This document shows positions 542-28,711 of a stretch of 64,000 nucleotides of DNA, piece by piece (position 1 is the first letter of the stretch; every line of letters begins with the position of its first letter). The stretch is from positions 1-64,000 of the forward strand of contig JAAYHX010000020.1 of the NCBI GenBank assembly GCA_012735215.1, written 5' to 3'. The notes beneath the pieces are model-generated. The model saw nothing but the letters and a program-made list of their open reading frames with translations, was not told the origin of the DNA and ran no database searches. The position numbers and the translations under genes are program-made. Source of the stretch: Tissierellia bacterium (GTDB taxonomy: Bacteria; Bacillota; Clostridia; Tissierellales; Tepidimicrobiaceae).

Positions 542-593
542 ATTTGTCGTCGACCTATAATAGTGCAAAAACCCCTGGAGGTCGACGACAAAT
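542..593. repeat. GTCGTCGA hairpin of CRISPR leader 1
   Basis: A perfect 15-bp inverted repeat (arms 542-556 and 579-593, core TTGTCGTCGACCT) flanks a 22-nt loop and is followed by a run of T. Near-identical and related copies lie at 28666-28711 and 26614-26665. It forms the distal end of the conserved leader. It could be a transcription barrier or a protein-binding palindrome; its role is unknown to me. Confidence 0.8.
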
Positions 594-721
594 TATTTTT
601 TTGCAACAGTGGCTTAATTTCAATAGATACGGGATAAAATGTTATCTAAATATTAAGAAAATGTAACAATTTATCACTTTGACAAAAAAGTGAGAATTTG
701 ATAATATCAAGGTATAGAATG
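545..721 (+). promoter_or_regulatory. CRISPR leader 1 with sigma-A promoter
   Basis: This 177-nt segment is the same length as 28535-28711 (minus strand) and differs from it at only three positions. It ends at the first repeat. It contains TTGACA at 679-684, a 17-nt spacer, and TAATAT at 702-707, so transcription should begin around 714, just before the first repeat. Conservation between two distant copies supports a functional leader. Confidence 0.85.
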
Positions 722-817
722 GTTACTAGACTACCTATAAGGAATTGAAACGTTTTACGACGTATTCTCTGTTTATCATGTTATACAGTTATTAGCCTAC
801 CTGTAAGGAATCAAAAC
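722..817 (+). CRISPR. Mini-CRISPR array 1: repeat, one spacer, degenerate repeat
   Basis: The first 30-nt repeat at 722-751 ends in the ATAAGGAATTGAAAC signature common in clostridial type I-B arrays. One 36-nt spacer follows at 752-787. The second repeat at 788-817 has five mismatches to the first (TAAGGAATCAAAAC end). This is the classic degenerate terminal repeat, or a psi-repeat as in crRNA-like regulators. No cas gene occurs in the window, so the array depends on Cas proteins encoded elsewhere or is a relic. Repeat and spacer lengths and the preceding leader make the call firm; the function is open. Confidence 0.85.
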
Positions 818-864
818 TCTGCTGTAGCAGGAGTAGGTTTTTAATTCATTATCTAATAACAAAT

Positions 865-904
865 AAAAGGATTGAGTTCTGTTTATTTAGAACCCAATCC
901 TTTT
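865..904 (+). terminator. Terminator of mini-CRISPR locus 1
   Basis: GGATTGAGTTCT (869-880) pairs with AGAACCCAATCC (889-900) with one mismatch, and a T run follows. The stem sequence is shared with the hairpin ending the second mini-CRISPR locus (28353-28391), so it belongs to the duplicated unit. Confidence 0.75.
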
Positions 905-10251: not shown

Positions 10252-11598
10252 CTATATCTCTTTTACTTGGACAATCTCCTGGATTATGTCATATTCATAG
10301 GGGTAGATGGGCCTATCGGGATATTCTGCTTCTCCCACCTGATTGTCATAGGGATCGCTTCTTAAATACCTTTTTTCTGGATATAGGTCATAGTGGAACT
10401 CTGAGTTGGCAGCCATTCTGAAGGGGTCTAGGTTGCCAAAGTAGTAGTTCCACCTTTTCATATTTTTATTCCTATAGGCGGAGCCTCCAAAGGACAGATC
10501 GGCAAAGAGCCAACCGTATGGTTCTATATAAAACTGAGCCCAATCATGGCAGCCTATGAACTTAGGATTTACTACCAATCCTGACTGCCATCTAGCAGGT
10601 ATCTTAGCTATTCTGCATAGGGTTATAAACAATAAGGCCTGTATGCCGCAATCACCTTTTAAGTTATAGGCAGCATATTCAGGAATATTGGTTATAACAG
10701 CATATTGGGGTACATAGGAGTACTGAATGTTTTTAGTAATATAGTCATAGATTTTTCTGGCCTTTAATAGGGGATTTGTCTCCTCACCCACTATCATCTG
10801 GCTTAATTCCACTAAATAGGGAGTAAACCTAACATGAGGTAGTACTTCCTCTGTATAAAAGCTTGGCTGGTGCCTAGACACTCCTTCTGCTGAAAGTTCC
10901 TTGTACTTGATATGGTTTTCATAGGAGTATTCTACAGCGAACTCTGTGCCCTTTTCTAAAGCTTCTTCAAAGTATATGGTTCTTTGAGGGTAGTAGGGAG
11001 GACATATGAATTTTGGATTATGGGAAGTACTAAGTATCTCTATCTTTTTAATCTGTTGGGCTTCTTGGGGAATGGGGATATGCACTCTAACAACTTGTCC
11101 ATATCTTGCATATTGGTCTTTTATTCTAAGTCCAGCTTTCACATGGATGTGATACCTAATTTCCTTCTTATCTATTATCTTATCTATTACTTCATCAAAA
11201 AGGGCCGAACTATCTTCCTGGGGATTGATTAGCCGGTCTTTTATATTCACATTAACCTTCATGATGTTTTCTAAAAATCTATTGTGAAAGGTTACTTGGC
11301 CATCTACATAGGCCCAATCTGCATATCTTTCATCCATTAGGGCTTCTAATTCTTCCCTAGTAAAATCTCTTATTTCCTTTTGGGCTAAGGTCAAGGCTTC
11401 ATTAAAGGTATAAATGTATTCCTCCTTCAGCCTTCTAATCCTTTCCTTTTCAAATATTAGCCTTTCTTTTAAAATAGATGGAATATTTCTTTCAAGGTAG
11501 ATCTCTATTAGGGATAAGGCCTTATCATAATTTCCATAATAGACGTATCTTTTAATATCCTCAGGCAGATCTACCAACAGATGCATTAATCTATTCAC
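10252..11598 (-). CDS. Transglutaminase-like cysteine protease family protein
   Basis: This 448-aa cytosolic protein (no signal peptide) has an N-terminal helical part of about 125 residues, a beta-rich middle, and a C-terminal transglutaminase-like core with a complete Cys-His-Asp triad: C317 (KGDCGIQA), H351 (GCHDWAQF) and D367 (FADLSFGG). The GTG start at 11598 is chosen because AGGAGGGG lies 6 nt upstream; an ATG 36 nt earlier has no ribosome site. Relatives are thought to be proteases or peptide ligases, but the substrate is unknown. It is monocistronic. Confidence 0.8.
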   Translation of the reverse strand: MNRLMHLLVDLPEDIKRYVYYGNYDKALSLIEIYLERNIPSILKERLIFEKERIRRLKEEYIYTFNEALTLAQKEIRDFTREELEALMDERYADWAYVDGQVTFHNRFLENIMKVNVNIKDRLINPQEDSSALFDEVIDKIIDKKEIRYHIHVKAGLRIKDQYARYGQVVRVHIPIPQEAQQIKKIEILSTSHNPKFICPPYYPQRTIYFEEALEKGTEFAVEYSYENHIKYKELSAEGVSRHQPSFYTEEVLPHVRFTPYLVELSQMIVGEETNPLLKARKIYDYITKNIQYSYVPQYAVITNIPEYAAYNLKGDCGIQALLFITLCRIAKIPARWQSGLVVNPKFIGCHDWAQFYIEPYGWLFADLSFGGSAYRNKNMKRWNYYFGNLDPFRMAANSEFHYDLYPEKRYLRSDPYDNQVGEAEYPDRPIYPYEYDIIQEIVQVKEI

Positions 11599-27990: not shown

Positions 27991-28179
27991 CTATTTCACC
28001 CCTCCCTTTTCTCGGTAGTTATATCTATATTTTAATTATAATACTTTTTATATATAAATGAGTAGATGATTATGCTTCCACAAACTTCCAATGAATACCA
28101 GCTATATATAATATTGTTTGTTTTATATATACCATTATAAATTTGAATTAAATTTAAAACTAAGAAGCTAATCAAGCCC

Positions 28180-28362
28180 ATTCATAGTAGAACCTTTAGT
28201 AGTGTAGCCAGCATTACTAACCTCTTTAAGGATAATATGGATATAGCTATGTAGAGCATGAAGACTGTAGATGAAGTAAATGAGAATTCAGAGATCATAG
28301 CATAGACAATTGAGAAGATTATACAATTCCTTAGAAGATATAGAAGTATAAGAAAGGATTGA
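28180..28362 (+). pseudogene. Decayed fragment, possibly a methyl-accepting protein C-terminus
   Basis: One frame reads as a helical, Asn/Ser/Glu-rich stretch (NLFKDNMDIAM, SMKTVDEVNENSEIIA, TIEKIIQFL) interrupted by two TAG codons where CAG or AAG would restore it. Such heptad-like helices resemble the signalling or tail region of methyl-accepting chemotaxis proteins. No start or upstream domain remains. It ends at the hairpin of mini-CRISPR locus 2. The flanking 28019-28179 holds nothing I recognise. Confidence 0.35.
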
Positions 28363-28391
28363 ATTCTATTCAATGTAGAATTCAATCCTTT
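28353..28391 (-). terminator. Terminator of mini-CRISPR locus 2
   Basis: A 16-bp perfect stem (28353-28368 with 28376-28391; GGATTGAATTCT core). It shares AAATAAAAGGATTGA-TTCT with the hairpin that ends locus 1. The T run is better on the plus strand, so it may act in both directions. Confidence 0.65.
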
Positions 28392-28437
28392 TATTTTTGC
28401 CTTTGTCAATAAGATACATCCTACTCCTAACACAGTG

Positions 28438-28534
28438 GAATTAATTCCTTATAGGTAGTCTAGTAACACCCTAAACTCTTTAGGGAAAAAACAAAAAGAA
28501 GACTGTTTCAATTCCTTATAGGTAGTTTAGTAAA
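28438..28534 (-). CRISPR. Mini-CRISPR array 2: repeat, one spacer, degenerate repeat
   Basis: Read on the minus strand, a 30-nt repeat (28534 to 28505) ends in TATAAGGAATTGAAAC and is followed by a 37-nt spacer (28504 to 28468) and a second repeat (28467 to 28438) with 27 of 30 positions like array 1, its last five bases altered to AATTC. The spacer contains the palindrome CCCTAAA-gag-TTTAGGG. The layout equals that of array 1. No cas genes are in the window. Confidence 0.83.
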
Positions 28535-28711
28535 CATTCTATACCTTGATATTATCAAATTCTCAATTTTTTGTCAAAGTGATAAATTGTTACATTTTCT
28601 TAATATTTAGATAATATTTTATCCCGTATCTATTGAAATTAAGCCACTGTTGCAAAAAAATAATTTGTCGTCGACCTCTAGGGGTTTTTGCACTATTATA
28701 GGTCGACGACA
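28535..28711 (-). promoter_or_regulatory. CRISPR leader 2 with sigma-A promoter and GTCGTCGA hairpin
   Basis: This 177-nt segment is the inverted near-copy of 545-721 with three differences. On the minus strand TTGACA (28577-28572), a 17-nt spacer and TAATAT (28554-28549) precede the first repeat by 14 nt. A 12-bp inverted repeat (28666-28677 and 28700-28711) forms its distal end. Confidence 0.83.

Follow-up and report, generated by a model that had tools for sequence, protein, structure and literature searches.

Two one-spacer CRISPR units in the window

The window, by which we mean the whole stretch of 64,000 nucleotides that was analysed (Tissierellia bacterium, assembly GCA_012735215.1, contig JAAYHX010000020.1, positions 1 to 64,000), contains two short CRISPR units, locus 1 on the plus strand and locus 2 on the minus strand. 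Each of the elements that the initial annotation had placed on the minus strand of locus 2, namely leader, promoter, repeat, a spacer of 37 nt, degenerate repeat and terminator, was located (Table 1). CRISPR arrays are recognised by at least two repeat copies at spacer distance and by a leader directly upstream that is homologous to the leaders of other arrays; locus 2 has both, its repeat copies starting at 28534 and 28467 of the minus strand, 67 nt apart. The putative promoter lies just upstream of the first repeat, and 46 nt separate the second repeat from the terminator-like hairpin. A tiny ORF behind a Shine-Dalgarno-like AGGAG, noticed by eye in locus 2, was dropped because it is absent from locus 1.

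Table 1. Elements of the two CRISPR units, with positions in the window.
Feature	Position	Strand	Remark
Locus 1, whole unit	545-903	+	element order as in locus 2
Locus 1 leader	545-721	+	inverted repeat at 545-590
Locus 1 first repeat	722-751	+	identical to consensus; Rfam CRISPR-DR2
Locus 1 single spacer S1, 36 nt	752-787	+	
Locus 1 terminal repeat, degenerate	788-817	+	
Locus 1 AGGAGTAGG	829-837	+	
Locus 1 terminator-like hairpin	866-903	+	
Locus 2, whole unit	28353-28711	-	complete minimal one-spacer CRISPR array
Locus 2 leader-distal inverted repeat TGTCGTCGACC...TAGTGCAAAAACCCCT...GGTCGACGACA, 46 bp	28666-28711	-	fold z -8.0
Locus 2 leader, 177 bp	28535-28711	-	97-98% identity with locus 1 leader
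Locus 2 putative sigma-70-like promoter, TTGACA-17-TAATAT	28549-28577	-	consensus match only, 10/12
Locus 2 first repeat, 30 nt	28505-28534	-	2/30 off consensus; 3' tag ATTGAAAC intact
Locus 2 single spacer S2, 37 nt	28468-28504	-	
Locus 2 terminal repeat, 3' end degenerate	28438-28467	-	
Locus 2 AGGAGTAGG, common to locus 1	28420-28428	-	marginal alone
Locus 2 intrinsic-terminator-like hairpin	28353-28391	-	dG -19.1, z -6.8

The repeat of locus 1 attains the Rfam gathering score for CRISPR-DR2 and belongs to a known repeat family; the repeat of locus 2, which differs from it at two of 30 positions, has no gathering-level Rfam match of its own. Locus 2 had been described as a second unit of the same design as locus 1 that shares its terminator sequence, and an alignment of the two over their full length bears this out. 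In the MAFFT blocks, leader and first repeat are identical at 202 of 207 positions, the post-repeat stretches at 27 of 47 and the terminators at 31 of 41; the second repeats agree at 23 of 30 positions (MAFFT columns, including two gap columns). The spacers are unrelated, with 14 of 37 positions identical. The homology of the blocks was judged by local alignment against 1000 dinucleotide-preserving shuffles. The terminator block reaches a score of 42 (best shuffle 28), and the stretch just beyond it still scores 35 (best shuffle 33). This reveals that homology between the two loci covers the unit in full: the similarity runs past the leader, into the terminator and beyond, contrary to the outcome that the initial annotation had named as its refutation. 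The flanks upstream of the inverted repeat are unrelated (score 20, attained by 113 of the 1000 shuffles), so that the border of the unit is sharp at the inverted repeat. The post-repeat stretch without the terminator is marginal (score 18, attained by 37/1000 shuffles), and its best match between the two loci is AGGAGTAGG itself; the claim that both units keep this stretch is thus correct as to its presence, with a weight that is marginal when taken alone. The terminator stems differ in one pair, G-C in one locus and A-T in the other, with pairing kept, and one further position is unpaired in the stem of locus 1.

Loci 1 and 2 are thereby confirmed as paralogous units, each with an inverted repeat, leader, promoter, repeat, spacer, 3'-degenerate repeat and terminator. 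The near-identical leaders suggest a recent duplication or gene conversion; however, the 3' parts have diverged, and a simple one-step duplication does not explain everything.

Related arrays, cas genes and spacers

Locus 1, used as the query against the organism's own assembly (25 contigs, 1.885 Mb, about 99% complete), returned 15 matches. A five-spacer array at C9:77312 has a leader of 75% identity and the same terminator hairpin as loci 1 and 2, and its terminal repeat is likewise degenerate at the 3' end. Locus 2 is thus built like an ordinary array of this genome, cut to one spacer. Further one-spacer arrays lie at C4:57.4 kb and C1:36.4 kb; a degenerate array at C9:97.5 kb has three spacers, and on C22 a leader is followed by just one repeat. 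Within 211,003 bases of own sequence, 3 kb of which were counted twice, the GGATTG..CAATCC terminator hairpin occurs at four sites; three follow arrays (locus 1, locus 2 and C9:77312), and the fourth, on C24, is a stray match to the terminator alone with no array.

Two spacers of the degenerate array (L058:380-830, C9:97.4-97.8 kb) resemble, in antisense and as judged by eye, regions of Shine-Dalgarno sequence and start codon, as if they were guides against mRNA starts. An antisense resemblance between a spacer of the same array and the sequence for the C-terminus of Cas2 is not claimed, as the nucleotide match of 25/38 is attained by shuffles.

With locus 2 as the query, matches at E 0.001 or better were found in 37 of 60 other genomes. 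The leader thus recurs in relatives; the terminator is reached by none of the matches listed, and the leader-repeat-terminator layout that had been looked for is present in a form with zero spacers in L022 (G011), where an inverted repeat, leader, one repeat and a terminator-like hairpin follow one another on the reverse strand from position 1497. In L037 the leader is followed by a single degenerate repeat, and degenerate repeats also enclose the two spacers of L074 and the one spacer of L093. The occurrence of related copies with five, one or zero spacers indicates that these are states of one unit, whose borders are visible as the inverted repeat on the 5' side and the terminator on the 3' side. 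In the mini-array of L093 (positions 100-420, a Tissierellia MAG) both repeats end in the changed sequence GAACCGTAATC, and by eye that of the first repeat could pair with TACGGTT inside the spacer.

Elsewhere the repeat family of loci 1 and 2, GTTACTAGACTACCTATAAGGAATTGAAAC, adjoins cas1b/cas3/cas4/cas6 and csm5/Csx1 genes, i.e., type I-B and type III systems. The genome under study has a single Cas1 match, within a type I-B operon on C23 with the order cas6, cas8b1, cas7, cas5, cas3, cas4, cas1, followed by an ORF of 92 amino acids that we take from its position to be cas2. The array of this operon has a different repeat, ATTAATAGAACTACAGTAGAATGTAAAG, dissimilar to the family of loci 1 and 2. 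A type III-D operon on C20 (31.2-38.8 kb; L066:5168-12754) encodes Cas6, Cas10 and Csm3-like, Csx10-like and Csm2-like proteins; in a 20-kb stretch that takes in about 5 kb in front of the operon and 7 kb behind it, there is no array of either repeat family. At C9:96-100 kb, about 68 kb from locus 2 on C9, two Csx1 genes flank the degenerate three-spacer array, and a further, stand-alone Cas6 gene (C9:99.2 kb) follows them. This Cas6 shares 34% of 236 residues with a Cas6 that adjoins an array of the same family in another genome, and has 24% identity to the I-B Cas6 of its own genome, which makes it the likely processing enzyme for the repeats of loci 1 and 2.

The initial annotation had concluded from the different spacers that the two RNAs would have different targets. 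The difference between the spacers is clear; for neither of them was a target found. Neither spacer, searched as a 34-nt core that tolerates up to three mismatches, has any match besides itself in the own genome and 248 others of the order (249 in all), and the first 21 nt of S2 match, at the same tolerance in the own genome, S2 itself and one low-complexity site with three mismatches. Viral contigs contain neither S1 (searched as a codon-degenerate pattern) nor S2 (searched as an exact 22-nt piece), and phage records yield chance-level matches only (best E 0.1). Both spacers are thus unique, and no source sequence was found in the own, order-wide, viral or phage searches. When the 13 spacers of the genome's own arrays were compared with own and relative stretches, none was clearly above its shuffles (four each, a rough control).

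An inverted repeat that opens the leaders

The inverted repeat with which the leader opens is, in our opinion, the part of the unit that most merits the attention of specialists. When up to three mismatches are allowed, its loop piece TAGTGCAAAAACCCCTGGAG is present at four sites of the own genome (the reversed control has no occurrence), and each of these is a CRISPR leader: that of locus 1, of locus 2, of the five-spacer array or of the I-B array. In the I-B array, whose repeat is unrelated, the inverted repeat lies 138 bp before the first perfect repeat. The element therefore opens the leaders of two repeat families; the coordinates noted for it, beside those in loci 1 and 2, are L046:13311-13356 and L054 near 11057-11098. 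However, the loop occurs together with the I-B repeat pattern in only one of 61 genomes, the own one, and its sharing between repeat families consequently rests on a single case.

A pattern scan of named species genomes detected 33 stretches with the inverted repeat, which are by construction pre-selected by the pattern and come from Tissierellia, other Bacillota and records labelled Chloroflexota and Caldatribacterium. A repeat of the family of loci 1 and 2 follows downstream in 31 of the 33, the exceptions being L073, with only 30 nt of flank, and L067, with no repeat within 222 nt. The outer stem hardly varies between loci; a few paired changes are seen (L036, L027, L072, L084 and L099). 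For 20 of the 33 loci, upstream ORFs (20 in total) were examined, and they include cas1b, cas3, cas4, cas6, csm5 and Csx1-type genes as well as unrelated genes and unknowns, and the C-terminal 197 of the 330 residues of the own Cas1 find matches of 41-53% identity in eight of the 33 loci.

How far the inverted repeat lies from the array was surveyed in 49 rows, which combine own loci, those found with the locus 2 query and those of the pattern scan, identical ones merged. A repeat is found downstream in 46 of these (none for L034, L067 and L073), and in 45 of the 46 the repeat core begins 114-169 bp from the end of the inverted repeat, L037 being the exception at 106; behind each of locus 1 and the five-spacer array, the survey counted one extra chance repeat. 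The distances cluster, with 139-143 bp the most common and others near 130 and 152. We claim no helical phasing for them, as the best period was about 12.5 and not 10.5 and the genomes are related. As a general reading, we rejected the idea that the inverted repeat is the terminator of an upstream gene, as the T-run is missing in several loci and the distance to the array is narrow.

Leader motifs that guide Cas1-Cas2, such as IHF sites or upstream motifs, are known, and like them the inverted repeat is a conserved DNA element within a narrow range of leader positions; it differs from them as a 46-bp candidate element with a conserved loop that lies 114-169 bp upstream of the repeat core. The inverted repeat may thus be an adaptation element or signal. 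In the open-access literature we found no description of it when looking for its loop letters or for inverted repeats and hairpins in leaders, but it may be known. If it guides acquisition, then type I-B and type III arrays of several phyla would have a testable DNA signal in common, one that would also help to explain the persistence of arrays without a Cas1 of their own.

Possible roles of the one-spacer units

We consider it fairly probable that locus 2 is an ordinary minimal leader-bearing CRISPR array of the GTTACTAGACTACCTATAAGGAATTGAAAC family and a sister of locus 1, whose single crRNA would pass through the stand-alone Cas6 into the type III-D complex as an immune guide. Under this reading one ancestral array was duplicated, and the two descendants now hold one spacer each, be it through shrinkage or because they never grew. 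A short transcript would start a few bases before the first repeat and end at the terminator; the stand-alone Cas6 would cut both repeats and release one crRNA with the tag ATTGAAAC, which would then be loaded into the III-D complex encoded on C20. Locus 2 is probably still able to yield this one crRNA. Short or orphan I-B and type III arrays of the CRISPR-DR2 family resemble loci 1 and 2 in having a leader, a repeat with the ATTGAAAC tag, a spacer of normal length, a terminal repeat that is degenerate at its 3' end, and cas genes in trans; loci 1 and 2 differ from them in having only one spacer, and this genome in the terminator hairpin shared by three arrays. As a mini-array, locus 2 would add another example to the dispersed short CRISPR arrays. 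Several observations speak against this reading: the first repeat of locus 2 carries two changes, the searches found no target for S1 or S2, and one small genome contains more one-spacer units than expected under plain decay. In addition, the III-D operon has a different Cas6 of its own, so that the III-D complex is only a candidate effector for a locus 2 crRNA.

An alternative explanation is that loci 1 and 2 are pure relics, left unexpressed or unused after the loss of a cognate I-B system. The only Cas1 of the genome belongs to a system with another repeat, and the degenerate array at C9:97.5 kb and the one-repeat remnant on C22 also speak for this explanation. However, both repeats retain their body and the first one its tag, the promoter has been kept, and so has the terminator stem, with a compensatory change; the genome also encodes a Cas6 of the cognate type, Csx1 and a III-D effector. 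We regard relics as a possible but rather unlikely explanation.

The units might also be seed arrays into which the I-B Cas1-Cas2-Cas4 can still insert spacers, acting in trans by way of the leader element that they have in common with the I-B array, a notion that is compatible with an ordinary minimal array as described above. It draws on the inverted repeat before the I-B array with its unrelated repeat, and on the similarity of the own Cas1 to Cas1 proteins encoded in inverted-repeat loci. We consider it unlikely, as there is no sign of new spacers, the repeats of the two families are dissimilar, and the pairing with the other repeat was seen in one of 61 genomes. Its most specific form, in which the inverted repeat is an undescribed adaptation element that is seen by Cas1b-type machinery or a partner, serves two unrelated repeat families from one Cas1-Cas2-Cas4 set, and keeps units with one or zero spacers as landing pads, is quite unlikely and we offer it as speculation.

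Another possibility is that loci 1 and 2 encode regulatory RNAs like CreA or CreR, in which partial complementarity leads a Cas complex to a host promoter to repress toxin or cas genes. A single spacer flanked by one good and one degenerate repeat, a stand-alone transcription unit with its own (here predicted) promoter and terminator, several dispersed copies and the lack of a phage match are all in keeping with such a role. However, seed matches of S1 and S2 in nine regions (upstream of the cas operon and of neighbour genes, and in the flanks of both loci) are at chance level and revealed no toxin or cas promoter target, the best overall match in 211 kb of own sequence is equalled by shuffled spacers, and the spacers are absent from the 248 other genomes of the order. 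Promoters elsewhere in the own genome are covered by the mismatch-tolerant spacer searches described above. Neither locus has a cas operon or a toxin linked to it, and a 3'-degenerate repeat closes the ordinary five-spacer array as well. In CreTA, according to PMC9458426, the first repeat has diverged more than the second, whereas at loci 1 and 2 it is the better kept. A CreA- or CreR-like role thus finds no support, and we judge it improbable.

That the units are virus-borne mini-CRISPR arrays employed in conflicts between phages is very improbable: a single spacer and a repeat resembling those of host arrays fit such arrays, the former as described in PMC8616872, but the searches described above found no viral match for the spacers, both loci carry a complete leader of their own, and their surroundings look chromosomal, with four of five tested neighbours encoding housekeeping proteins (aldehyde ferredoxin oxidoreductase, a flavodiiron protein, MscL and an EamA transporter) and the fifth having no Pfam match.

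As a separate observation made by eye, the stretch between locus 2 and mscL (window 28100-28350) looks like a decayed fragment of a chemotaxis receptor on the plus strand.
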